From a virus: a stretch of 34,659 nt of DNA. Of this stretch, positions 3,438-33,765 are shown piece after piece. Each line of letters opens with the position of its first letter. The first letter of the stretch is position 1. The stretch is from positions 1-34,659 of IMG/VR virus record IMGVR_UViG_3300033553_000315. One strand, written 5' to 3'. Below the pieces are notes generated by a model. That model was not told the origin of the DNA. It made no database searches and saw nothing but the letters and a program-made list of their open reading frames with translations. Made by a program: the position numbers and the translations under genes.

Positions 3438-3466
3438 ATATTAATATATTATTTTATGTCTGTCAA
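3438..3466 (-). promoter_or_regulatory. Early-type promoter, TTGACA class (site 3)
   Basis: TTGACA at 3461-3466 and TAATAT at 3438-3443, 17 bases apart on the minus strand. The stretch GACATAAAATAAT after the -35 is identical to that at the nuclease-cassette promoter (12029-12057). Confidence 0.75.
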
Positions 3467-3489
3467 TATATATTTAATAAACAATAAAA

Positions 3490-4284: not shown

Positions 4285-4313
4285 ATTATAGATATATATG
4301 TTTTGTCTGTCAA
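4285..4313 (-). promoter_or_regulatory. Early-type promoter, TTGACA class (site 4)
   Basis: A perfect consensus pair on the minus strand: TTGACA at 4308-4313 and TATAAT at 4285-4290, with 17 bases between. GACAAAAC follows the -35. It decides the start of the downstream gene at 4229, because the longer reading frame begins inside this promoter. Confidence 0.85.
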
Positions 4314-4357
4314 GTGATATTTAATGATTTATTTAACTTATTTTTAGTGTTGTACTG

Positions 4358-5386
4358 TTACCACAATTTAGAACTTAAGTAGTGCGGGCGTAGGTTTGCG
4401 TAACGTTTTAACATCTTTAAATCTGTGTGCCCTGTAATGTGTGCAATCTCTATATCTCTTAAATTAGTCTTCTCGTAAAACATACAAGTAGCCTCGTGCC
4501 TTAAATCGTGAAAGTGTAAATCTTTAATATTAGAGTTTTTGACTATTAGCGCCCAACGATGTTCAAAAGCATTTGTATCACTCCAACAACCAAACACACG
4601 ACCATCTTTTCCACTGCCAAACCTGTTTTTAAGAAGTTTATATGTAATCGAAGACATAGGGATAATTCTTGATTCGTTTGATTTCGTAATCTCTTTAGTT
4701 AAACTTATTAATCTATTCTCAAAATTAACATATTTCCATTCTAACTTAAGAATTTCACCAAGACGCATAGCTGTATTGATAGCGAACAAGATAATTAATT
4801 TATATTCATTCTTATTTTTATACATCTTATTTGATGCTTTAAATAGTTTTTGTATTTCGCCTTTTTCCAAACGCCTATCTCGCTTAATATCTGTGCTTGG
4901 TGCTTTTACTAATTTAAACGCATTTGTTAGAGTTAAATAATCATACTCAAGACAATGCCAATCTATCATAATTTTTAAGCGATAATAAAGCTTTCTTATT
5001 GTCGCTTCTTCATACAGTTTTCCTCTGGCGTTATTAGTAGTTTTTAATGTAGCTATAAATCTATTTAACACTTTACTTGTAATATTTATTTGAGTTAATT
5101 CACCAAACCAAGCCCTTACTATATTAATTTCACTTTTATTATTACTATTTAAAACATTACAATTAACATATTCATCTGCTATTTCATTTATTGTTAAACG
5201 CTTAATATCAACTGATGTTATGCGTTCACCTTTTAATATTTTTGCTTCTGTTTCAATTATAAAATTTTTAGCCTCAATTTTACTTTTGAATGATTTAGTT
5301 ATGTTCTTAATTCCTTTTTTTCTTATTTGAACTTCATATGAAAGTTTTCCAGTGCGCTCACTCTTCTTGTCAATTATTACAGCCAT
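4358..5386 (-). CDS. int: Tyrosine recombinase / phage integrase
   Basis: The product is 342 residues from the ATG at 5386, which has AGGGGG upstream. The N-terminal 60 residues form the arm-binding-like part with charged strands; residues about 62-160 are the SAM-like core-binding domain; the rest is the catalytic domain. Visible catalytic residues are R208 (NTAMRLGEI), a Lys near 231-235, H293 and R296 (HDLRHE), H320 (GHTD) and the nucleophile Y329 (RYANL). It would recombine attP with a bacterial attB to insert and, with an Xis, excise the phage. Repeats, a hairpin and tRNA-Arg lie directly upstream and form the likely attachment region. A longer reading from a TTG at 5479 has no well-spaced ribosome binding site and is not adopted. 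Confidence 0.95.
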   Translation of the reverse strand: MAVIIDKKSERTGKLSYEVQIRKKGIKNITKSFKSKIEAKNFIIETEAKILKGERITSVDIKRLTINEIADEYVNCNVLNSNNKSEINIVRAWFGELTQINITSKVLNRFIATLKTTNNARGKLYEEATIRKLYYRLKIMIDWHCLEYDYLTLTNAFKLVKAPSTDIKRDRRLEKGEIQKLFKASNKMYKNKNEYKLIILFAINTAMRLGEILKLEWKYVNFENRLISLTKEITKSNESRIIPMSSITYKLLKNRFGSGKDGRVFGCWSDTNAFEHRWALIVKNSNIKDLHFHDLRHEATCMFYEKTNLRDIEIAHITGHTDLKMLKRYANLRPHYLSSKLW

Positions 5387-5407
5387 TTTAAGCCCCCTTG
5401 GTGGCAT

Positions 5408-5427
5408 TGCAGAGAATATGCAGAGAA
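5408..5427. repeat. Arm-site repeat pair, left (TGCAGAGAA x2)
   Basis: TGCAGAGAA occurs at 5408-5416 and 5419-5427, 11 bases apart. An identical pair with the same spacing lies at 5603-5622. Direct repeats flanking a recombination core next to an integrase gene are typical arm-type integrase sites; that role is inferred. Confidence 0.65.
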
Positions 5428-5491
5428 GACTATAGATGATATACTTAAACCCAGCAAGAGCCTTGCAAACAGTGAGCAAAAGAAAAATAGT

Positions 5492-5514
5492 ATAACCCCC
5501 TCCTAAGGGGTTAT
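5492..5514. other. Hairpin with anticodon-loop sequence; candidate attP core
   Basis: A perfect 8-bp stem ATAACCCC/GGGGTTAT closes the 7-base loop CTCCTAA. The same loop, also 7 bases on a stem, is the anticodon loop of the tRNA-Arg at 5628-5700, and the shared stretch CCCTCCTAAGG is 11 bases. The hairpin lies between the two arm-repeat pairs, where an attP core belongs. Read leftward it is followed by ACTATTTTT, so it could instead be a terminator separating the integrase from upstream transcription. Confidence 0.5.
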
Positions 5515-5559
5515 GAATGGCTTAAAATTCGTATTAATTGTTTATTTTCAGTATGTTAC

Positions 5560-5599
5560 ATAGTTTGTGATAGTGTTGTATAGTTGCACATAGTTGAGC
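5560..5599. repeat. Four helically phased ATAGT repeats
   Basis: ATAGT begins at 5560, 5570, 5580 and 5590, exactly every 10 bases (ATAGTTTGTG, ATAGTGTTGT, ATAGTTGCAC, ATAGTTGAGC). One site per helical turn on the same DNA face suggests a cooperative binding array for Xis, integrase or a bending protein beside the attachment core. Confidence 0.55.
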
Positions 5600-5602
5600 A
5601 AT

Positions 5603-5622
5603 TGCAGAGAATTTGCAGAGAA
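5603..5622. repeat. Arm-site repeat pair, right (TGCAGAGAA x2)
   Basis: TGCAGAGAA at 5603-5611 and 5614-5622, with the same 11-base register as the pair at 5408-5427. It ends five bases before the tRNA. Confidence 0.65.
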
Positions 5623-5627
5623 TTAAC

Positions 5628-5700
5628 GCCCGCATAGCTCAGGGGATAGAGCACAACCCTCCTAAGGTTGGGGTCACACGTTCGAATCGTGTTGCGGGCA
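5628..5700 (+). tRNA. tRNA-Arg (anticodon CCT)
   Basis: The 73-base cloverleaf is complete: acceptor GCCCGCA/TGCGGGC, D-arm GCTC/GAGC, anticodon stem CAACC/GGTTG with loop CTCCTAA (anticodon CCT at 5661-5663), T-arm ACACG/CGTGT with loop TTCGAAT, and discriminator A at 5700. The encoded 3' end is followed by CTC, not CCA. It would read AGG codons. Every helix is fully paired, so it looks functional rather than an attL/attR remnant. Phage genes lie on both sides, so it appears to be carried by the phage. Confidence 0.97.
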
Positions 5701-5716
5701 CTCATAAGGATCTTAA

Positions 5717-6133
5717 ATGTTTGAATTGATATTTAATGACATTAAAGAACGTTTTCCAAACAAAATAATTCTTTCTCCAGAAGATATTGCGCCTTTGATT
5801 TGTATTAATAAACAAGTTCAGGCGGATATGAGACATAGGGGAACATTTCCAATTCCTATTAAAAAGATAGGCAAGAAGGTTGGTATAAGCATTTATGATC
5901 TTGCTGAATATTTAAGCAATGATAACAAAAAAGAAGATGTTATAGTTATTAAAAAAGAAAAAATAAAGAAAGAAAGAATAGATAATATTAAATATAACGT
6001 TCCCAAAAATTGGCATATAGGATTTAAACAACAATCTAATTATTTGAATGAATTATTTATAGAAGTTGATAAAATATTATTAAATACTAATATAAAAAAT
6101 GTTGAAAAGGAAATTAAGAGGGGAAGATTTTAG
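5717..6133 (+). CDS. Winged-helix DNA-binding protein, Xis/AlpA-like
   Basis: 138 residues on the plus strand, with AAGGA upstream of the ATG at 5717, only 16 bases after the tRNA. Residues about 18-65 (LSPEDIAPLICINKQVQADM, then an RGTFP-IPIKKIGKKVGISIYDLAEYL pattern) resemble the MerR/AlpA-type winged helix of phage excisionases: a helix-turn-helix, a short wing and a final helix that selects a column name-like 'DLAEYL' end. A Lys-rich linker and a helical tail follow. Its place beside the attachment region and opposite to the integrase fits a recombination directionality factor; it could also be a transcriptional regulator. The domain call is moderate and the excisionase role is inferred. 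Confidence 0.55.
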   Translation: MFELIFNDIKERFPNKIILSPEDIAPLICINKQVQADMRHRGTFPIPIKKIGKKVGISIYDLAEYLSNDNKKEDVIVIKKEKIKKERIDNIKYNVPKNWHIGFKQQSNYLNELFIEVDKILLNTNIKNVEKEIKRGRF

Positions 6134-6157
6134 CTGTCTTAAGTTCTTTTCTATACA

Positions 6158-7513
6158 TCATTTCATTATTTTTTTTTTTAAAATCTCCAAATGCCTCTGA
6201 ATATCCATAATTTGAATTGATATTCTTACTTGTTGTTCTGTAGTTATACCTTTTCTCATTAACTCACTCATTAAACTACCAAGTTTTAAATTAAGGCTGG
6301 CTATATTTTCAGCCGTTGAATATATATTATTATCTAATTTAACGGTATTAGGAATGAATGAAAAATGATAATTACCCTCATCGCTTAAAACATTAGACTT
6401 TACTAATTCATTCTTTAATGATTTGTAATTAATACCGCTATATTGTTCTTGTTCTGCCATTCTCTGATCTATGTGCATATCAAAAAGCTTACCAGTTTTT
6501 GTATGTGCCATTTCTATCAATTTATTATAATCAATAAAATTATTAACTCTGTTTACCGTTACACTTTCATTATTATTTCTTAAATTGTCTATAAATTTCT
6601 CATCTACTCCAAATAATTCCTTTGCTTCTTTCTTCCAAAAGTCTCTTATAATACTTTCTTTATAAACAACTTTAGGGGATTTAATACTCTGAGCAATATT
6701 AAATTTATCTATTGCTGTGGATTTTCCTTTTAATTCTGCAACTTCGTTTATTTGATTTCTTCTCTTTGAATAATGTTGTCTAAGTTCATTAGATATACCG
6801 TCTATTTTAAATGATTTAATTTTTTTATTTTCGCTATCAAATTCCTCGGTTTGCGAGATTTTAAAGCCAATATTTCTTAATCCATTTGCAAGTTCTGCTC
6901 TAAAAATTGTTCCATAAAGCTTTTGAAAATTAAATAAAGGATGGTTTTCTAATGTCTTTATTTTATTATCTTCACTTAAACATTTTCTACTTATTATAGT
7001 ATGAATATGTTCCTGCATATCTGGCATGTCACCGTTAACGCCTCTTGAGGTGTGATGCCTAAAACATGACATTAATAGTTTAGTGTCATAGCTTTTCTTA
7101 TTGTATTTTAAACGCCTATAAGATCTCTTTTCTATTTCTTTTGCAACTCTTTTATACGCATTCATAAATACAATATTTAAGTCTTCTTTTAAATATGCGT
7201 CCGAGAGATTATATACAATAGAAAAATCTTTAGGTGCTGACAGGGTTAAGTCAGTTGCTATATATTTTACTTCTTTTAAAGTAAATAATCTCTCATTTGA
7301 TAATGGGTGAATACCGTTTATCAATTTGGTAAAATCTCCAGATTTTATTTGTCCAGTTAAACCTAACTGTTCACATCCTTTTCCATACCAAAAGCTATCA
7401 ACATTATTATTTTCACTATAATAATTTTCCTTATCCTTCTTATTTTTCCAAGTCGTAAATTCTGGCTTTTCATAATATGCTGGAAATTTAACTGTTGATA
7501 CTGTTGCAACCAT
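6158..7513 (-). CDS. TrwC/TraI-type (MOBF) relaxase without helicase domain
   Basis: The 451-residue protein has the hallmarks of a MOBF relaxase. Near the N-terminus are two tyrosine pairs, Y13-Y14 and Y31-Y32, as in TrwC/TraI, followed by FWYGKGCEQLGLTG, the family pattern. DLTLSAPKDFSIVY (88-101) matches the conserved 'DLTxSxPK' segment. The metal site is present: FRHHTSR (H153/H154), then PDMQEHIHT with H169 and H171. Such enzymes nick one strand at oriT and stay bound through tyrosine. The SF1 helicase half of conjugative TrwC is absent, and no mating-pair or coupling gene is seen. A perfect 20-bp inverted repeat with an inner hairpin lies directly upstream (7514-7616). Roles could be mobilisation by a helper or rolling-circle initiation of phage DNA. 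Confidence 0.88.
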   Translation of the reverse strand: MVATVSTVKFPAYYEKPEFTTWKNKKDKENYYSENNNVDSFWYGKGCEQLGLTGQIKSGDFTKLINGIHPLSNERLFTLKEVKYIATDLTLSAPKDFSIVYNLSDAYLKEDLNIVFMNAYKRVAKEIEKRSYRRLKYNKKSYDTKLLMSCFRHHTSRGVNGDMPDMQEHIHTIISRKCLSEDNKIKTLENHPLFNFQKLYGTIFRAELANGLRNIGFKISQTEEFDSENKKIKSFKIDGISNELRQHYSKRRNQINEVAELKGKSTAIDKFNIAQSIKSPKVVYKESIIRDFWKKEAKELFGVDEKFIDNLRNNNESVTVNRVNNFIDYNKLIEMAHTKTGKLFDMHIDQRMAEQEQYSGINYKSLKNELVKSNVLSDEGNYHFSFIPNTVKLDNNIYSTAENIASLNLKLGSLMSELMRKGITTEQQVRISIQIMDIQRHLEILKKKIMK

Positions 7514-7616
7514 ATTCTTTTTCTCTCTATTTATAAAACAATTATATTATAATTTTTACACCTTTACAAAAGGTGTGTATGGTGTGTTAGTACTTTTAAA
7601 TAGAGAGAAAAAGAAT
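7514..7616. other. Inverted repeat with inner hairpin: oriT-like or nick site
   Basis: Perfect 20-bp arms lie at 7514-7533 and 7597-7616 (right arm TAAATAGAGAGAAAAAGAAT). Inside the 63-base spacer is an 8-bp hairpin, ACACCTTT at 7558-7565 and AAAGGTGT at 7569-7576, followed by GTATGGTGTG. The arm nearest the relaxase contains its ribosome binding site. An inverted repeat immediately upstream of a MOBF relaxase is where its oriT usually lies. A minus-strand -10 (TATAAT) also sits in the spacer, so it may double as an autoregulated promoter. The nick site itself is not identified. Confidence 0.55.
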
Positions 7617-7629
7617 TTGTTTTTATCTG

Positions 7630-7989
7630 TTAGATTGTTTCTATGATTACTATGACTTTACCGCCTTTGATAACTTCTCTTTTTTCTGCATATATAACAT
7701 CAATTTGCTCATCGTCTGCGAATAAATTACCATCTCTTAAAGCGTCGAAGACTCCCTTAAAAAAATTGTCCAAATCTCTTGTTCTTCGATCTGGTGGATA
7801 ATAAAAGAATTGTATTTTTAATCTTTCTGTAATATTTAAATTTAGTAACTCTTCATTAATTAGTATTTGTTTTGTATCTTTTTTGAATTGAACAGCCTTA
7901 GGACTTAAATATTTACGTCCTCCTCGTGCCGTGGACCAATAAGTATTAACTGATGGAGGAGTAGGTAGCGTTAATGTTATTCTTTCCAT
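7630..7989 (-). CDS. rusA: RusA-family Holliday junction resolvase
   Basis: At 119 residues this matches the usual RusA length. The N-terminal PTPPSVNTYW and the acidic signature PPDRRTRDLDNFFKGVFDAL, with D72 and D74, followed by FADDEQI (D92/D93), are the RusA catalytic carboxylates and substrate-binding surface. The enzyme is a dimeric Mg-dependent endonuclease that resolves four-way junctions formed in recombination or replication. The start at 7989 overlaps the stop codon of the upstream gene by one base, so the two are translationally linked. It lies upstream of the relaxase across the inverted-repeat region; together they form the DNA-processing part of this end. Confidence 0.93.
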   Translation of the reverse strand: MERITLTLPTPPSVNTYWSTARGGRKYLSPKAVQFKKDTKQILINEELLNLNITERLKIQFFYYPPDRRTRDLDNFFKGVFDALRDGNLFADDEQIDVIYAEKREVIKGGKVIVIIETI

Positions 7990-8330
7990 TAAATTCTACT
8001 TCTAATACTTAATGGACTTCCACACATTGCATTTAATTTATATGGGTCCATTGGTTTTGGAAGCATATAAATAAATTCTATTTCATTTACTATTGTTATT
8101 ATAAATTCATCTGTAAAATAACTATTATCTAATTTTTTATATAAATCTTTTCTATCTACACCAGCAATTCTTAATTCAGTAATTCTTTTTTGAAAGTAAA
8201 ATAGGGTAGGGCACGTTAATACATTATTCTGTTCTTTATTGTCTTTTAATATATATACATTTGCTCTTGCTATATTAACCACCAACATTAGACTAATTAA
8301 ACATAGCGTTAAATATAATTTTATTCTCAT
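7989..8330 (-). CDS. Exported hypothetical protein (113 aa)
   Basis: The first 24 residues form a good signal peptide: MRIKL, a hydrophobic core LTLCLISLMLVV, and a likely cleavage site around ARA-NV. The mature part of about 90 residues is mixed in charge with two cysteines (LTCPTLF and NAMCGS), which could form a disulfide in the periplasm. I do not recognise the family. AAGGAAATAAT lies before the ATG at 8330. It shares a divergent promoter region with the plus-strand membrane gene at 8391 and overlaps rusA by one base. A secreted protein paired with rusA is odd; it might be a lysogenic conversion or surface-exclusion factor, but that is speculation. Confidence 0.7.
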   Translation of the reverse strand: MRIKLYLTLCLISLMLVVNIARANVYILKDNKEQNNVLTCPTLFYFQKRITELRIAGVDRKDLYKKLDNSYFTDEFIITIVNEIEFIYMLPKPMDPYKLNAMCGSPLSIRSRI

Positions 8331-8359
8331 TATTATTTCCTTTTGTTACATATCTATAT

Positions 8360-8376
8360 TATAATATGTATATACA
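8360..8376 (+). promoter_or_regulatory. Palindrome-associated promoter, TGTATATACA class (site b)
   Basis: TATAAT at 8360-8365 is followed after one base by TGTATATACA at 8367-8376 on the plus strand. The surrounding TATATTATAATATA is nearly symmetric, so a -10 also reads on the minus strand toward 8330. The two divergent ribosome binding sites make an imperfect inverted repeat around it. Confidence 0.6.
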
Positions 8377-8390
8377 AAAAAGGAAATAAT

Positions 8391-8663
8391 ATGTTTAAAT
8401 TAGACGAATATAAAACTTACATATCAGATTTTTCAGTTATATTGTGTTTTGTTTTATTTGGTTACTCGGTTCATATGGGTTCATTAAATATATTTTATTT
8501 GTTCTTAGTATCTTTTTTGTTACTAATTACTGAAGTAAAAAGATATGCAATGTTTTGTATTGTTTTTACTGTATTATTTATTAATGTTATGTCTATCCAA
8601 TATTATAACTTATTTCGTGTAATTATTATTTTTTTAATAATATTGACATTATTTTTTATTTGA
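8391..8663 (+). CDS. Small polytopic membrane protein, moron candidate
   Basis: I place the start at 8391 because AAGGAAATAAT lies directly before it; an earlier ATG at 8343 has no such site and lies upstream of the promoter. The 90-residue product is almost entirely membrane: after a short head (MFKLDEYKTYIS) about three to four hydrophobic helices follow, with a single KR pair (EVKRYAM) between them. It is the only plus-strand gene among the lysis genes, has its own promoter (8360-8376), and its end overlaps the convergent spanin gene by 15 bases. Such independently promoted membrane genes in prophages often act in superinfection exclusion; a holin or antiholin is also possible. Confidence 0.65.
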   Translation: MFKLDEYKTYISDFSVILCFVLFGYSVHMGSLNIFYLFLVSFLLLITEVKRYAMFCIVFTVLFINVMSIQYYNLFRVIIIFLIILTLFFI

Positions 8664-8939
8664 ATGATTTCTTAAAATCCAGTCTTTCAATTCTTTTTGT
8701 TTTTCAAAGCATTGTTTATATTTTACAATTGTATCAACATTGAAATTAATTAATTCCTCAAAACTTCCGTCTTTTAAACGGTTTAATTTATCACATTCTT
8801 TTAATATTTCATCATCAGGTAAAACATAAACTTCTTTTGTTTTATCGTATACAATAGTTTCTTGTTGTTTTTTAGTAAATGAAGAACAACCAGTCATTAA
8901 AAATAAAGTTAGTATTAAAGTAGTTATAATTTTAGTCAT
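8649..8939 (-). CDS. Outer-membrane spanin lipoprotein (Rz1-like)
   Basis: A lipoprotein signal is clear: MTKIITTLILTLFLMTGC, with lipobox LMTGC and the acylated Cys at residue 18. The rest (96 residues in all) is hydrophilic and charged, with two further cysteines. It directly follows the inner-membrane spanin candidate; its start at 8939 overlaps that stop codon by one base. Inner and outer spanins join across the periplasm and fuse the two membranes in the last step of lysis. Unlike lambda Rz1 it is not nested inside Rz and is longer. Its 3' end overlaps the convergent membrane gene at 8391-8663. Confidence 0.75.
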   Translation of the reverse strand: MTKIITTLILTLFLMTGCSSFTKKQQETIVYDKTKEVYVLPDDEILKECDKLNRLKDGSFEELINFNVDTIVKYKQCFEKQKELKDWILRNHSNKK

Positions 8940-9325
8940 TAAAGATCCAATTCTTTCAATAAATTATTAAACTTATCTTTAGTATTATTTTGCATAACAC
9001 ACTCTTTATTGATAATTTTTACATCACGTTTAATAATTTCTTTTATTTCTACTTTTTTATTATCTGTATTTCTTTTTAATTCTTCATATTTTATGATTGA
9101 TTGTTTATGTTTATTTATCTCAATTAAAAACTTTTTAGAATTTTCTTCATTAATTTTAGTTATAACCTCAGTATATTCTTTAGTTAACTTTAATTTTTCA
9201 TTATTAGTTCCTTTTGAATAACCAAGTGTATATATTCCAGACAAAAATAATACAATAGCAAATATATATAATGCATATTGTATTATTTTGCTTCCTTTTA
9301 TTACTGTTAAAACTGTAGCAAACAT
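8939..9325 (-). CDS. Inner-membrane spanin (Rz-like)
   Basis: 128 residues with one N-terminal membrane helix (about 17-36, YALYIFAIVLFLSGIYTLGY) and a long helical, coiled-coil-like periplasmic part rich in Lys and Glu. This is the classical type II topology of an i-spanin. A Cys lies near residue 109, which could crosslink dimers. It sits one base after the fibre-like gene at 9327 and immediately before the lipoprotein, completing a spanin pair with the holin and endolysin genes just upstream. The sequence itself is not conserved enough to name a family, so the call rests on topology and order. Confidence 0.72.
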   Translation of the reverse strand: MFATVLTVIKGSKIIQYALYIFAIVLFLSGIYTLGYSKGTNNEKLKLTKEYTEVITKINEENSKKFLIEINKHKQSIIKYEELKRNTDNKKVEIKEIIKRDVKIINKECVMQNNTKDKFNNLLKELDL

Positions 9326-10260: not shown

Positions 10261-10497
10261 TTATTGTCCTTTTATTTTTTTAATTGCTTCAGTTGTTATT
10301 GTTCTTAAATAAAAATTTACCATCGGAACAACTACAGATATAATAACAAATATATCCATATTAAAAATTTCTTTTATATATCCCAAATTCTGCTCAAGAG
10401 TTACTAAGCCCACGACAGCAGTATTAAATATAAGAGTTTTACTTTTATACCATTTCTTTGTTATTGCATCTTCTATTTCTTTAATTTTTTCTATCAT
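10261..10497 (-). CDS. Holin candidate
   Basis: 78 residues: a charged N-terminal helix (IEKIKEIEDAITKKWYKSK), then two hydrophobic helices (about 23-38 and 48-65) and a basic tail TTEAIKKIKGQ. Small two-helix proteins with a charged tail beside an endolysin are typical class II holins. The ATG at 10497 overlaps the endolysin stop codon in an ATGA arrangement, so the two are translationally coupled. Holins form holes in the inner membrane that time lysis and release the endolysin. The XhlA-like protein at 12182-12523 may assist or compete for this role. Confidence 0.7.
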   Translation of the reverse strand: MIEKIKEIEDAITKKWYKSKTLIFNTAVVGLVTLEQNLGYIKEIFNMDIFVIISVVVPMVNFYLRTITTEAIKKIKGQ

Positions 10498-10922
10498 ATT
10501 TTTAACCCATTCTTTAAATCATTTATTGTTAATTTTCTATTTAAAGTTTTACTAAATCTGTATTGAAAATGTAACATATCAGCAAATCCAACAAAATCGC
10601 CACCCCATTCTAATCCTAATACTTTCCCAATACTTCCTATTTTTTTATAATTAGCAGTATCCGCAAAATCAACTTTACCATTTTTTATAATACATATATC
10701 AAACGCAAGTCTATAATTATGATAACTTCCTCCGCCTTTGACTTTAGTAACTATATGACCAGTTTTAATACCATCATCATATATTTTTTGCTGAGATTCT
10801 ATATCTCTATAAGTGGAAGTTAAAATAACATTTAAACCCTTTTCTTTACATAAGTCCAATAATTGTTTAGCTTTTTGTTGCAAAAAAGGGTGTAATTCAT
10901 TAATGTCACGACTATTTATCAT
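10494..10922 (-). CDS. Endolysin, M15 (VanY-like) L-Ala-D-Glu peptidase
   Basis: 142 residues, the usual size for phage M15 peptidases. Motifs in order: TSTYRDIESQQKIYDDG (35-51), the zinc ligands H68 and D75 in SYHNYRLAFD, and H118 in DMLHFQY, with an acidic catalytic candidate in LEWGGDF (about 105-109). The enzyme cleaves peptide crosslinks of peptidoglycan after holin opening; no signal peptide is present, so it depends on the holin. GAGGAT precedes the ATG at 10922 but lies partly in the small hairpin at 10927-10958. The downstream holin gene overlaps its stop codon. Confidence 0.93.
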   Translation of the reverse strand: MINSRDINELHPFLQQKAKQLLDLCKEKGLNVILTSTYRDIESQQKIYDDGIKTGHIVTKVKGGGSYHNYRLAFDICIIKNGKVDFADTANYKKIGSIGKVLGLEWGGDFVGFADMLHFQYRFSKTLNRKLTINDLKNGLKI

Positions 10923-10975: not shown

Positions 10976-11668
10976 CTATTTGTTTAAAATATTGACATAC
11001 TCACTTAATAAATCATCTTTAATTTTATCATTTGTTAGCTTATCAACAAAATTATGACTTAATTTTTCAATATCATAATTCTTCAAATAATATTTTTCTA
11101 ACCATCTTGTATAATGTTTTGAATTTCTATTTATTTCAAAACCAAGTTCAACATTTTTATTCTCTCCATTTTTTAATGCTGTCATGTGGCAAGGGTTTCC
11201 CAATATTTCACATTCTTCAATCATTTCTTGTTTAGTTAATTTAAATGTTTTATATTTAATTTTATCTAAATCAGTAAAATCAACTTCAAAAATGTAATAA
11301 TAATGAATATCTTGCCACAACCTTACTTGTCTAACGTTTATTACGTTCGAATTTAAACCTAAAAAACTACATTTAAATTCGACAAGTTCACCATATTTAT
11401 TTTCAAAGTCTCCACTATCTAAACTTGATGGTATTAATTTATAACCCATCAGTAACGAGAAGTAAGCTTGAACCCTGAAACCGTAGCGCTGTGGCTTTAA
11501 GTTATATACACGTATCATAAAGTCATAAATATACATATCAAAACTATAATATTTATTACTTGCATATTTATATGTTAAATAATCATTAATTCTTATTTTC
11601 ATTTTAATTATTTCGTTGTCTGCACACAATTCTTCTAAATATTCTATGTCTTCCTTAGTATATTCCAT
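10976..11668 (-). CDS. PD-(D/E)XK nuclease-like protein
   Basis: 230 residues. The middle shows a restriction-endonuclease-like core: a helix (QRYGFRVQAYFSLLMGYKL, about 60-78), D84/D87 in SLDSGDFENKYGE, then a strand carrying E97-x-K99 (VEFKCS), followed by NVRQVRLWQDIHYYYIFEVD, a helix-strand unit common in this fold. D...ExK are the metal-binding and catalytic residues of the superfamily. No methyltransferase gene is nearby, so an ordinary restriction-modification pair is unlikely; a host-DNA-degrading, homing or phage-exclusion nuclease is possible. It is the second gene of a two-gene cassette whose first gene (11671-11997) supplies its AAGGAG site, under an early-type promoter though embedded in the late region. 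Fold call moderate; target unknown. Confidence 0.6.
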   Translation of the reverse strand: MEYTKEDIEYLEELCADNEIIKMKIRINDYLTYKYASNKYYSFDMYIYDFMIRVYNLKPQRYGFRVQAYFSLLMGYKLIPSSLDSGDFENKYGELVEFKCSFLGLNSNVINVRQVRLWQDIHYYYIFEVDFTDLDKIKYKTFKLTKQEMIEECEILGNPCHMTALKNGENKNVELGFEINRNSKHYTRWLEKYYLKNYDIEKLSHNFVDKLTNDKIKDDLLSEYVNILNK

Positions 11669-12028: not shown

Positions 12029-12057
12029 TTTATAAACTATTATTTTATGTCTGTCAA
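12029..12057 (-). promoter_or_regulatory. Early-type promoter, TTGACA class (site 5)
   Basis: TTGACA at 12052-12057 and TATAAA at 12029-12034, 17 bases apart on the minus strand. Flanks AAATATGTA before and GACATAAAATAAT after the -35 are shared with other early sites. It gives the nuclease cassette its own control inside the late region. Confidence 0.75.
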
Positions 12058-12122
12058 TACATATTTAATGATTTATCTATAAACCATACAATATATTTAT
12101 GTTCTATAGATTAAACAAGAAA

Positions 12123-14725: not shown

Positions 14726-14742
14726 TGTATATACATATTGTA
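14726..14742 (-). promoter_or_regulatory. Palindrome-associated promoter, TGTATATACA class (site c)
   Basis: On the minus strand TACAAT (14737-14742) is followed after one base by TGTATATACA (14726-14735). It precedes the fibre gene starting at 14711 and fills the 31-base gap after the tail tip gene. Confidence 0.6.
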
Positions 14743-17700
14743 TTATATATATTTAGTTTTTTCAAATCCTCGTCCAATTATACTATTCATTTTATATATA
14801 ATAATTTGAACAGATGATTGATTACTTCCAAAATCTGTAACTTGATTTGCTGATGTATATATAGCAGAAGTTAAATCAGTAACAATAATTGTTCTTATAA
14901 CTAATCCATTTTTAATTACATCAATTTCATAATTATCACCATCAGGATCGACATTAGTTACACCATCTCTTATGTGTGCATCACCCCTTATTCTTTTATT
15001 CCAAGTTATATTTAAATTTGCAGATGAGTCTCTACTACCAATTACATTATAAACAGCATATGATTTTAATCCAATTCCGTTATTAACAAATCTAACAGCT
15101 TTTACATCTGCTAAATATTTTCCATAAGAAACATTTTTATAAAACTTTTGAGTTTTAATTATATTTATATCACTTAATATTCTTTGTATGCTTCCACTGT
15201 TATCTAATTTAACAAAATTTTCATAAGTTGAAAAATGATTATTTATATATTTATCAGTGCCATAGCGACCCCTCAACAACCAACTCAATTCGTAGGTGTT
15301 AATATCGGTTAATACTGCGTTTTTAAATGTTATAATTTCATTACCAATTATTGCAGTATTAACTCCACTTAAAAATTCTTCTTCAGTAATACTTGTTAAT
15401 ATTCCACCATTAACTTTTACAGTTATTTTATTATAAAAATCAACTGTATTATTATCTGTAAAATTACCTAATTTATTTAATAGATAACCATTTATTGCTT
15501 CAATATTAAAGTCTGTTACTTCATCATATTCGCCAAATTCTGTATTTGAAGAATATAAAACTGAACCAGTCCAATCTAAATTATTATTATTTTTTTTAGT
15601 TGCAATATAACAACCAACATCATTATTACTATCCAATAAAATTGGAATATCTAAAAATATAGATGAACTGTTTGTTGTAATACTTATTGTTTGTTTATTA
15701 TTTAAAATGCTTGCACCAGTCGAATCTTGGCTATATACTGTTGCATCTTCACTTACTACTTGAAATTTAATTTTTCCTAAGTCTTCTTCTTTTTTAACAA
15801 TTCTTAAATTATAAGTTGCATCTTCTTTATTTACAGTTATAACATCACTTGGTTCTAAATCAATATGATCATAGTTTGTTGTAAAAGTAAAACTATCACG
15901 AGAAACCCAAGCATTATACATAAGTTTATCAACTAATTGTTTTGCTTTATTGTTATTAAAAACAATGGGTAAAGAAATGCTTTGAACTTCTTCTGTAGTA
16001 TTTAACTGTCTTTTGCTTTCTTCAGTGTTTGGCTGATAATCTTTATTTTTATCTATATAAATTAAATTAATTTTCTTAGGCAATTCAAGTTCTTGTTGTC
16101 TTGTCATTGTTAATAATTCAGAAAAATTTAAATTATTTGAATAATCCATCGCTCCAAATTCTTTATAGTCAATTATTTTTACCGAATTTTTACCTCTTAA
16201 TATAAATTTTAATTTATACTCGCTTTCTATTCCATCAAATAAAAAACCTGTTGAAAGCTGTTCCAAACAGCTTCTTATAGCCGTTCTTGTTGATACAACA
16301 TAACCATCAACCAATATATTTTGTAATTGTGTAACATCAGTTTTTATTGCTTTAATTCCTGTTCTTGTGCTTAAATCATTAACTATTGCATCGAGCCAAT
16401 ATCCGCCATCAGTCATTCTGTCACCATACATCCAGATATATGCATTTTTATATAAACTATTGTCTCCAATAAAAATATATCTATCTCTTAAATAATCATA
16501 AGTTCCACTGTATTTCGTAAAATTGAAGCCGTTCGCTAATGCTGCAATATTGCCATAAATTTCACTTCTAATATTTCCTGTATCCAAACTAATATAAGAC
16601 ATAGTATTAGCTACATTATTTGATATATAAAACATCTCTCTTTTATTTTTATTGATTGATATTTTAGTATTATTTAAATCATCTTTATTTGTTGACATAT
16701 TAAGAAAAATATTAAATATCATTGTATTAGTATCTACATTATATTTATATAAATAATATGTATATGATAATCGTGAAATTCCTGTCGATTTTCTATATAA
16801 TACAAAAACGCATCTTGTAACCTCATCAAAATATAAATCTGTTGCGCCATCACCTTCAATATTGCTTATAGTATGAAATCTTTTTTGTGCTTCTAAATTT
16901 ATACCAACAGTTTTAAATGCAGATAAATATGCCCCAGAAAATGTGTCTCTGTCACTTGTCCAATCTCTTTCGATATAATATATAATTCCAGTTTTTGGGT
17001 CAATATCATAACAATTCTTAGTTAATAAACCTTTAGTAGAATAAACTAATGTCATTCCACCAACTTCAAAATTCTCTATTAAATCAATATTATATCTATT
17101 AAATGTTATTGCATATTTGTCTGTTTTATAATATTCTGTATCTGCACCTACGTTAAATGTTCCTACAGAATAATACGATACATCTTTAATTCCATCATAA
17201 TCATAATTATTTAAAACTAATTTACCACCCAAAACTTCTGCGTTAATATCTCTATTAACTACGCTGCCATCAATATAAAAAGCATTAGTTTTTGTCGAAC
17301 TATAACTTTTTAATGCAAGTGTGTTAGCATCGTAAATTAATAAATGGTTAGCAATTCTTCCATTTCCACCATCAGCACTATAGCATATTATTGCCACGTC
17401 ACCATTAAACAAAATATTTATATGATAATCTTTTTCTTCTGTAAAATTTAAAAGACTACTAATGCCATGACCAACTAATGAATCTGAAATTGAAGGACCT
17501 TTTAAAATAGTATCATCTGTATTTAATTTATATAAACTTACATATGTGTTACTGTTAATGGAATAACTTGCTAATGAATATACACAATTATTATAATCAC
17601 TATAAGCAATTCCTTTTATATCTGATTGTGCTAATGTTTCCGTTATTTCCGCATAACCGTTCGGTTTTACAATATTTGAAAGTGGTGATCGTATCACTTC

Positions 17701-20408: not shown

Positions 20409-20426
20409 ATGTTCTTCTTTATTATT

Positions 20427-20443
20427 TGTATTAACATATTATA
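20427..20443 (-). promoter_or_regulatory. Palindrome-associated promoter variant (site g)
   Basis: TATAAT (20438-20443) then one base and TGTTAATACA (20427-20436) on the minus strand: the same geometry as the other sites, with two central changes that keep the TGT/ACA ends. It would restart transcription for the hub genes after the long gap. Confidence 0.55.
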
Positions 20444-20489
20444 TAATATTAATAATAAAATATAAACTACTTTACAAATATAAAAGCAC

Positions 20490-24790: not shown

Positions 24791-24808
24791 CTAATTTCCT
24801 TTTTAATT

Positions 24809-24825
24809 TGTATATACATATTATA
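24809..24825 (-). promoter_or_regulatory. Palindrome-associated promoter, TGTATATACA class (site d)
   Basis: TATAAT (24820-24825) then one base and TGTATATACA (24809-24818) on the minus strand. It restarts late transcription for the tail chaperone and everything downstream, after the plus-strand cassette interrupts the operon. Confidence 0.65.
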
Positions 24826-24854
24826 AACAATAATAAATATATTTCAAATATGTA

Positions 24855-27637: not shown

Positions 27638-27656
27638 AACAATATCCTTTTTTATT

Positions 27657-27673
27657 TGTATATACTTATTATA
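27657..27673 (-). promoter_or_regulatory. Palindrome-associated promoter variant (site e)
   Basis: TATAAT (27668-27673), one base, then AGTATATACA (27657-27666) on the minus strand: one change from the common palindrome. It restarts transcription of the tail genes after the capsid terminator. Confidence 0.6.
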
Positions 27674-27703
27674 ATAAATTAATAATATAATACAAATAAA
27701 AAA

Positions 27704-31866: not shown

Positions 31867-33765
31867 TTATTTATATTTTTTAACAAATCCTTTTTTTGTA
31901 TTCTTTCTTATTAATTTGCTATAATTATTGTTTAAATTAGTTGATTTTTCTTCTTCAATAACTTTTGGTTTTAATTCTTCTAATTTTTTCCCAATAATTT
32001 GTTCATATAATGTTTTATAATCCATTCTTTTTATTCCAAGATGATAAGCAACAGCATAAGAATAAACGGAACAGTCTAAAACTTCGTTACGTACATATGT
32101 TTTAATCCATTCTATTTGAGCTTGTCCTTTAACTATTTTAGTTATCATCTTTTCAGCGGTTAACATCTTATAAAATTCTTCATCAAAATCTTTTGAAAAA
32201 TGTATATATCTATCACCAAAATCTTCTAATCTTAAACGACTATATATTTCTTCTTTTGTTATTGATGTTCCGACGAAGTAAACACCGTTTTTATTTGGTT
32301 TTCCGCTTATTATTGAATTCATTACATAAGAAGAACCTTTAATTATTATATATTTATCTGTATTTTTATTACAGAAATCATATACACGTTGAGCGAAGTG
32401 ACCACCTGAATCGAAAGCGGCTTTACGTATATATAAATCAACACCACTTGGATGTTTAAAAGGTCTTCTAATGAGTTTATTTAATTCAATAAACACATCA
32501 TCTTCAGCAGGATTTCCCATTATTTCAGTATAATATACATTCCAACATTCTTCATTCTCTCCCCAAGCTTGTATAATTACAGCCAATCTATTATCTTGTA
32601 TATCAACACCAGCCGTTAAAAATATAGCTTTCTCATTAATTTCAAAAAATTTATAATCTTCTGCTCTTTCTAATAAAGAAACATAAGAAGGTTGCGATCC
32701 ATCTGCTTCCCAAGTTTGAGCTAATACAGTATTAATAAATGTTTTTAATTTAAAGTTATCATCTTTGCTTTCTAAAAACTTATTACAAATTTCTTCCCAT
32801 TCAAACCAACCTAATGGACTATAAAGAGAATTTAAATGATATGTTCTTTTTGATGGATTATTAAAATTAAGATTCTCTGCAATCCATTCACCATTTTCAA
32901 GCATATATGTTTTATGATGTTCTTTGATATGTTCTTTACAATTTTGGCATTCGTAATAAACACTACCACTCAAAACTCTTTTTTGATTGTTAACTTGCTT
33001 TCTAAATTTTAGATTATCAAATATTAGTGGTTGTTTAACTTTACAAAAAGGGCAGGGGACATAATACTTACGCTGATCACCATCTTCATATGCTTTCTCT
33101 ACTGCTGATAAACCTTTGATTGTCGGTGTTGATGTAATGAAGATTTTCTTTTTCTTGCCATAAGTGTCAGTTCTCTTTCTTGCTAAGTCAATTGGATCGC
33201 CTTCTCCCTCAACGTCTAAAGGGTAAGCATCAACCTCATCAAGATAAACATACTTGGCTGGGATGGAACGAAGACCAGCAGCACTATTTGCACCGATAAT
33301 ATTTATTATCCCGCCAGTAAACTCTTTTACTAATACAGTGTTAGTTCCATCCCTTGATTTGGCTGGTTTAATTTTATATTTAAGTGTTGGGCTTTCTTCA
33401 ATCATTGGAGTGATTGATTGTTTACTTCTTTTTTTTGCTATATCAACCGTAGGAAAAACCAAAATCATTGATGAGGGGTTAATGTCTATTACATAGCCAA
33501 GCCAATTAAAACCTATTGTTGTTTTAGAAACCTGAGTACCAGCCATAAACACAACTTCTGTTATTCCATTATTAGCTGTTAAGCAATCCATAATCTCTCG
33601 ACCATATGGCGCTCTTGAAGATTTATAAGGTCCGGGTTCTGCACTATCCTTTGAAGATAATAAGCGAAAGTTATCAGCCCACTCAGTAACCGTATAATCT
33701 TTTACAGGCTTTAATCCTTCGATAAAACTGAGTTTATATATATTTTTATTATCATTATTATTCAT
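31867..33765 (-). CDS. Terminase large subunit, GpA family
   Basis: 632 residues. Visible motifs: Walker A-like AGTQVSKT (75-82), Walker B KYVYLDEVDAYP (171-182), coupling motif ITSTPT (210-215), a zinc-binding pair CPFC (238-241) and YECQNCKEH (about 272-280), and the nuclease part with FLTAGVDIQDNRL and RKAAFDSGGHFAQRVYDFC. These define lambda GpA-type terminases, which cut at a cos-like site and pump DNA into the prohead. It starts two bases after the stop codon of the small gene at 33768 and is the third gene of the late operon. Confidence 0.97.
   Translation of the reverse strand: MNNNDNKNIYKLSFIEGLKPVKDYTVTEWADNFRLLSSKDSAEPGPYKSSRAPYGREIMDCLTANNGITEVVFMAGTQVSKTTIGFNWLGYVIDINPSSMILVFPTVDIAKKRSKQSITPMIEESPTLKYKIKPAKSRDGTNTVLVKEFTGGIINIIGANSAAGLRSIPAKYVYLDEVDAYPLDVEGEGDPIDLARKRTDTYGKKKKIFITSTPTIKGLSAVEKAYEDGDQRKYYVPCPFCKVKQPLIFDNLKFRKQVNNQKRVLSGSVYYECQNCKEHIKEHHKTYMLENGEWIAENLNFNNPSKRTYHLNSLYSPLGWFEWEEICNKFLESKDDNFKLKTFINTVLAQTWEADGSQPSYVSLLERAEDYKFFEINEKAIFLTAGVDIQDNRLAVIIQAWGENEECWNVYYTEIMGNPAEDDVFIELNKLIRRPFKHPSGVDLYIRKAAFDSGGHFAQRVYDFCNKNTDKYIIIKGSSYVMNSIISGKPNKNGVYFVGTSITKEEIYSRLRLEDFGDRYIHFSKDFDEEFYKMLTAEKMITKIVKGQAQIEWIKTYVRNEVLDCSVYSYAVAYHLGIKRMDYKTLYEQIIGKKLEELKPKVIEEEKSTNLNNNYSKLIRKNTKKGFVKKYK

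Follow-up and report, generated by a model that had tools for sequence, protein, structure and literature searches.

The 451-residue product of positions 6158-7513 is, with near certainty, a relaxase of the MOBF class with an intact catalytic set. It is carried by a lambda-like siphophage genome, whose phage nature is secure: matches were obtained for the terminase, the portal, the capsid, the tape measure and tail proteins. The relaxase lacks a helicase half and has a nic-like site of its own in its leader. Our best reading, which we put at about an even chance, is that the two form a compact, self-controlled mobilisation module, through which the excised phage would be moved by the conjugation apparatus of a helper.

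The phage genome and its relaxase

The window analysed here is the whole of IMG/VR record IMGVR_UViG_3300033553_000315 (34,659 bases, 28% GC, without end repeats). On the minus strand the genes run from the small and large terminase subunits through portal, capsid with a protease domain, tail tube, tape measure, tail tip, endolysin and two spanins to RusA, the relaxase and the integrase, and end in a replication block that encodes a primase/helicase-type protein. An integrase alongside terminase, portal, capsid, tail and lysis genes is the gene set of a temperate tailed phage. The small terminase begins some 100 bases into the record, as would be expected in a cos-type phage, so the record may be near complete. 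The features on which the argument draws are as follows.

961-2679: replication protein of primase/helicase type, in a block of its own
4358-5479, minus strand: tyrosine integrase (family match)
5492-5514, no strand assigned: palindrome ATAACCCCCTCCTAAGGGGTTAT, candidate attP core; its 10-mer CCTCCTAAGG is common with the tRNA-Arg anticodon arm (5658-5667)
5628-5701, plus strand: phage-borne tRNA-Arg (CCT) gene
5717-6133, plus strand: small protein with an HTH/AlpA-type DNA-binding look by eye; candidate excisionase or accessory factor
6158-7513, minus strand: MOBF (TrwC/TraI-type) relaxase, 451 aa; trans-esterase domain at about residues 1-315 and a 135-aa helical C-terminal tail, without helicase
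7630-7989, minus strand: RusA-like Holliday junction resolvase (family match), the gene upstream of the relaxase
8649-9325: spanins
10494-10922: endolysin
31867-33765, minus strand: terminase large subunit of the lambda gpA type (family match), a marker of the phage backbone

The earlier note, made from the letters of the window, had proposed a MOBF relaxase lying between the integrase and the lysis genes. The open reading frame is real and on the minus strand, and its position holds, with RusA also intervening on the lysis side. A profile search and a structural overlay on TrwC, both of which that note had called for, bore out the class. The protein matches Pfam PF08751 (TrwC) with an E value of 6.9e-47 and scores 146.5 bits against NCBIfam NF041492 (MobF), for which the cut-off is 100; against TIGR02686 it reaches 129 bits, under the cut-off of 145.5. 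Solved TrwC and TraI structures were also matched by sequence (PDB TrwC 1omh, 1.8e-18). Aligned to R388 TrwC, the protein retains both tyrosine pairs (Y13-Y14 and Y31-Y32), the DLTLSAPK segment with its aspartate D88 and the metal-site histidines H153, H169 and H171.

An AlphaFold model built on a 44-row alignment has pLDDT above 80 across residues 41-310 and superimposes over about 270 residues on pKM101 TraI (8a1c, Z 28.6) and R388 TrwC (1osb, Z 28.4), while relaxases from other MOB classes give Z below 8. Confidence is low at the tyrosine stretch (residues 15-34), so that the tyrosine-histidine geometry there is only predicted. Residues 316-451 are predicted to be helical. No helicase domain was matched in the protein, as the earlier note had said; such a C-terminal half is usual in MOBF proteins and does not strictly define them.

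In a tree of 94 MOBF domains the phage protein is a lone long branch, with about 2.6 changes per site on the terminal branch. Despite this, it keeps 30 of the 38 columns that are at least 95% conserved in 43 other MOBF proteins, catalytic residues included, a sign that its enzymatic role has been maintained.

The palindrome at 5492-5514 sits between the integrase and tRNA-Arg (CCT); if it is the attP core, the phage carries a spare, intact tRNA-Arg. Searches with the tRNA-Arg core gave no match in scans of GTDB genomes or the IMG/VR collection, at best 87% across 55 bases in 298 Campylobacterota genomes, and none within three mismatches in 398 genomes from the phylum to which the Shewanella locus belongs. 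The small protein at 5717-6133 had no match in protein-family searches.

Two repeated intergenic elements were also observed. The first, around TGTCTGTCAATA, occurs at 2913-2949, 3442-3478, 4286-4335 and 12030-12079; its reverse complement reads TTGACAGACA... TATAA and lies near the starts of small genes and of replication-block genes, and on its sequence it resembles a shared early promoter with an operator. The second, TGTATATACATATTAT, recurs between late genes (829-862, 14726-14751, 20424-20457, 24806-24839 and 27654-27687) and is possibly a late promoter or activator site. Between the endolysin and the tail genes, 10976-11668 encodes a 230-aa protein with a possible nuclease-like motif by eye and no Pfam or PHROGs family match.

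The relaxase leader

The earlier note had pointed to an oriT-like repeat upstream of the relaxase. The repeat is present and proved more structured than described: the 116 bp between the relaxase and RusA hold three interlocked features, namely a perfect 20-bp inverted repeat, an 8-bp hairpin inside it that abuts a nic-like 9-mer, and a promoter-like site.

7514-7533, minus strand: inverted-repeat arm containing the relaxase RBS (AGAGAGA), which directly precedes the ATG
7541-7569, minus strand: promoter-like TTGTAA-17-TATAAT in the loop between the arms, directed toward the relaxase; predicted start about 7534
7558-7576, plus strand: perfect 8-bp hairpin ACACCTTT-ACA-AAAGGTGT, in the position of IR2 in MOBF nic sites
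7577-7586, plus strand: nic-like GTATGGTGT/G, directly 3' of the hairpin with no gap
7597-7616, plus strand: matching inverted-repeat arm, which in a read-through transcript would pair with the RBS and hide it

The nic-like site and the relaxase gene are on opposite strands. In the register of R388 the nick is predicted after 7585, and in an F-like register after 7583. The R388 site itself is GCGCACC-GAAA-GGTGC-GTATTGTCT/A, and TrwC is reported to need a purine after the nick for efficient transfer (PMC4176350). In the phage, GTATGGTGT matches GTATTGTCT at 7 of the 9 pre-nick bases, and a purine (G) follows. The 3' arm of the hairpin also carries the sole site in the window with no more than three mismatches to the 14-base R388 core GGTGCGTATTGTCT, where 1.1 would be expected by chance somewhere. 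Among 20,000 shuffled intergenes, 177 (about 1%) equalled the nic match with an abutting stem of at least 6, for a hairpin that had been noticed before the test. Taken by itself the nic resemblance is modest, and we regard the shuffle result as suggestive and not as proof.

The Campylobacterota locus L129, which encodes a relaxase 36% identical to that of the phage, gives independent support for the phage site. In the leader of that relaxase, on the same relative strand as in the phage, a GCCA-GTTGCAA-TGGC hairpin is followed by GTATGGTCT, which matches R388 at 8 of 9 bases. The oriT area of the IncN plasmid R46 has GTATAG without an obvious adjoining hairpin, so the R388 form is not universal among MOBF sites. 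The phage oriT region itself had no DNA match in plasmids.

No perfect repeat of 18 bp or longer (loop up to 120) to compare with the 20-bp inverted repeat arose in 40 shuffled windows. The promoter-like site has the tied top score in 5400-8400, a stretch in which the count of such sites is not above that of shuffles, and its -35 box overlaps the nic hairpin. Predicted folds differ sharply between the two possible messages. In read-through RNA from RusA the RBS lies within the 20-bp stem (-33.9 kcal/mol, z -4.7), whereas RNA from the inner promoter (about 7534) contains one arm only and leaves the RBS open (-2.9 kcal/mol). The leader may therefore act as a switch for relaxase expression, in which the relaxase could also repress the promoter by way of the -35 box. 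A literature search for published cases of RBS hiding in read-through transcripts gave nothing.

Proposed mobilisation in trans and its alternatives

Mobilisation in trans seems the best reading because the nic-like site is conjugative in form, no transfer machinery was matched and the gene would be shut off by late transcription. Neither a TrwB-type coupling protein (T4CP) nor a VirB4-type ATPase was matched in this possibly incomplete record, as expected for an element that is mobilisable and not self-transmissible. A relaxase is present, and a putative oriT is recognised by similarity. On the other side of the account, no accessory relaxosome protein was identified among the phage genes, which, together with the absence of a fused helicase, counts against mobilisation.

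The proposed course of events would be the following. During late transcription through RusA, the mRNA stem would hide the RBS, no relaxase would be made and packaging would go on undisturbed. Outside the late phase, mRNA from the inner promoter would lack the upstream arm and the relaxase would be translated; by binding the nic hairpin it would cover the -35 box and so limit its own expression. On excised, circular phage DNA, the relaxase would nick the plus strand near 7585 and stay on the 5' end. The coupling protein and type IV secretion system of a co-resident conjugative element would then export the strand, the RusA side first and the relaxase and integrase last, and the integrase would install the phage in the recipient. 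The fuller form of this proposal is a small dual-mode temperate phage of lambda-like type, packaged in virions and also mobilised in trans by conjugative elements as an excised or lysogenic circle, by means of its own MOBF relaxase and oriT, with the inverted repeat in the RNA as the switch that turns the relaxase off under late lytic read-through. We advance this form tentatively, as possible and somewhat short of probable.

The integrase, the tRNA gene and the relaxase adjoin one another, as they do in integrative mobilisable elements. This raises the question of whether the integrase, tRNA, small HTH protein, relaxase and oriT are the remnant of such an element, fused with the prophage and unused by it, or whether assembly joined two neighbouring elements. 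A further IMG/VR record (L134/G305), in which phage-like ORFs stand beside a MOBF gene and two integrases, lends this some weight, as does the lack of end repeats in a phage record that is possibly incomplete. However, the window contains a single integrase, and, a few small ORFs and the tRNA apart, every gene between terminase and replication block has the same orientation. The third-position GC of the relaxase is low like that of its neighbours, and its catalytic residues and leader structure are intact. We consider a passenger of this kind unlikely. As for a phage-plasmid, whose lysogeny would be extrachromosomal, no plasmid replication or partition genes were seen among the ORFs searched, several of which are without a match, and an integrase is present.

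We also think it rather unlikely, and to a very similar degree, that the relaxase has been co-opted to initiate rolling-circle replication, nicking the phage circle upstream of its gene for sigma-type late replication or to supply concatemers for cos packaging. HUH two-tyrosine nickases start rolling-circle replication in other phages, such as P2 (A) and phiX174 (A), and by analogy the enzyme here might do the same. The loss of the helicase half, a nick site that adjoins the gene and the location of the gene in the phage interior, with RusA on one side and the integrase on the other, would all suit such a role. What weakens it is that the phage already encodes a replication protein of primase/helicase type in another block (961-2679) and that the inverted repeat would silence the relaxase in late transcription, just when sigma replication is needed. 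Moreover, the relaxase does not share the repeated promoter-like element of the early genes, and the nic-like site retains the MOBF conjugative form.

It is very improbable that the relaxase serves as a weapon or regulator that competes for a coupling protein or plasmid oriT and so blocks or hijacks conjugation in the same cell: a helicase-less protein with an intact DNA-binding domain fits this, but an adjoining nic-like site of its own would be superfluous and competition alone would not require the kept catalytic residues.

Phages and conjugative elements are normally seen as alternative routes of gene spread. If mobilisation in trans is correct, a structurally complete phage could reach cells that lack its receptor, and cargo carried by the phage could travel along plasmid networks. 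With a nic hairpin, a promoter and a read-through-sensitive RBS in about 115 bp, the leader would be one possible way to separate the two routes in time. A minimal, helicase-less MOBF protein could also show whether the family works with a helicase supplied in trans.

Other records and known systems

Relaxases are indeed unusual in phages, as the earlier note had held: no genuine phage matched among 50,697 deposited records. The single match there, MT836143, was rejected as a phage on its bacterial gene content. Pattern scans and alignments in IMG/VR gave five further MOBF records; the scans rest on short motifs and will miss divergent proteins. Several of the IMG/VR matches were first read as plasmids, a reading that was rejected as phage genes are present. 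At least two other IMG/VR records join phage structural genes to a MOBF gene, and the combination is rare, not unique.

IMGVR_UViG_3300012668_000143 (100.6 kb; L008, L139-L142) has terminase, capsid, portal, tape measure and tail genes. It also encodes a full-length MOBF relaxase and a TrwB-type coupling protein, as well as ORFs resembling tra/T4SS genes, and is either a conjugative phage-plasmid or a chimera. IMGVR_UViG_2866922325_000003 (42.8 kb; L011, L137) has capsid, portal and tape measure genes alongside a MOBF relaxase of 1215 aa; a TrwB-family coupling protein was not found in the record. In IMGVR_UViG_2571042908_000001 (L134, L143-L144), phage-like ORFs lie beside two tyrosine integrases and a MOBF gene whose second half falls in an overlapping ORF of its own; one phage-like ORF was recognised as terminase-like by inspection only. 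IMG/VR scans with the relaxase and with the terminase gave no close relatives of the phage. A small helicase-less MOBF protein with its own nic-like leader is new so far as searched, and literature searches found no published report of the relaxase/oriT arrangement in such a phage.

The nearest known systems are R388 TrwC and pKM101/pCU1 TraI, with which the phage relaxase shares its fold (Z 28), two tyrosine pairs, the HUH motif plus a third histidine and DLTxSAPK. As in the phage, the R388 hairpin stands directly 5' of a GTATxGTxT nic sequence. The phage protein differs in its identity of about 25%, a 10-aa insert between the tyrosine pairs and the missing helicase half and, unlike TrwC and TraI, it is encoded on a tailed phage with no adjoining coupling-protein gene.

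The top core-domain identity (35-37%) is to MOBF proteins of Campylobacterota, from Sulfurospirillum-type ICE/IME-like loci (L129-L132), with which the GIHP segment is also common. These loci differ in being chromosomal; a ParA-like gene precedes the relaxase, no phage genes were seen nearby, and the best-match relaxases are about 960 aa long against 451 aa. A Campylobacterota origin of the phage relaxase, considered on this identity, found no support: other MOBF proteins score just as well in bits, and the two do not group in the tree.

UViG_3300012668_000143 and UViG_2866922325_000003 resemble the phage in holding structural genes and MOBF in one record, but their relaxases are 1070 and 1215 aa long and they are not close relatives. 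The leader has its counterpart in insertion sequences such as IS10, where a like arrangement keeps the transposase off under impinging transcription; in the phage it would be the relaxase that is kept silent while late lytic transcription runs. Finally, P1-like phage-plasmids and the mobilisable plasmids derived from them also mix phage and conjugation functions, with a relaxase or oriT in two of the phage-plasmids and in most of the derived plasmids (PMC10879196). The P1-derived plasmids have lost phage function (PMC10879196), whereas here a full structural set, an integrase and a relaxase stand together in a small lambda-like phage.
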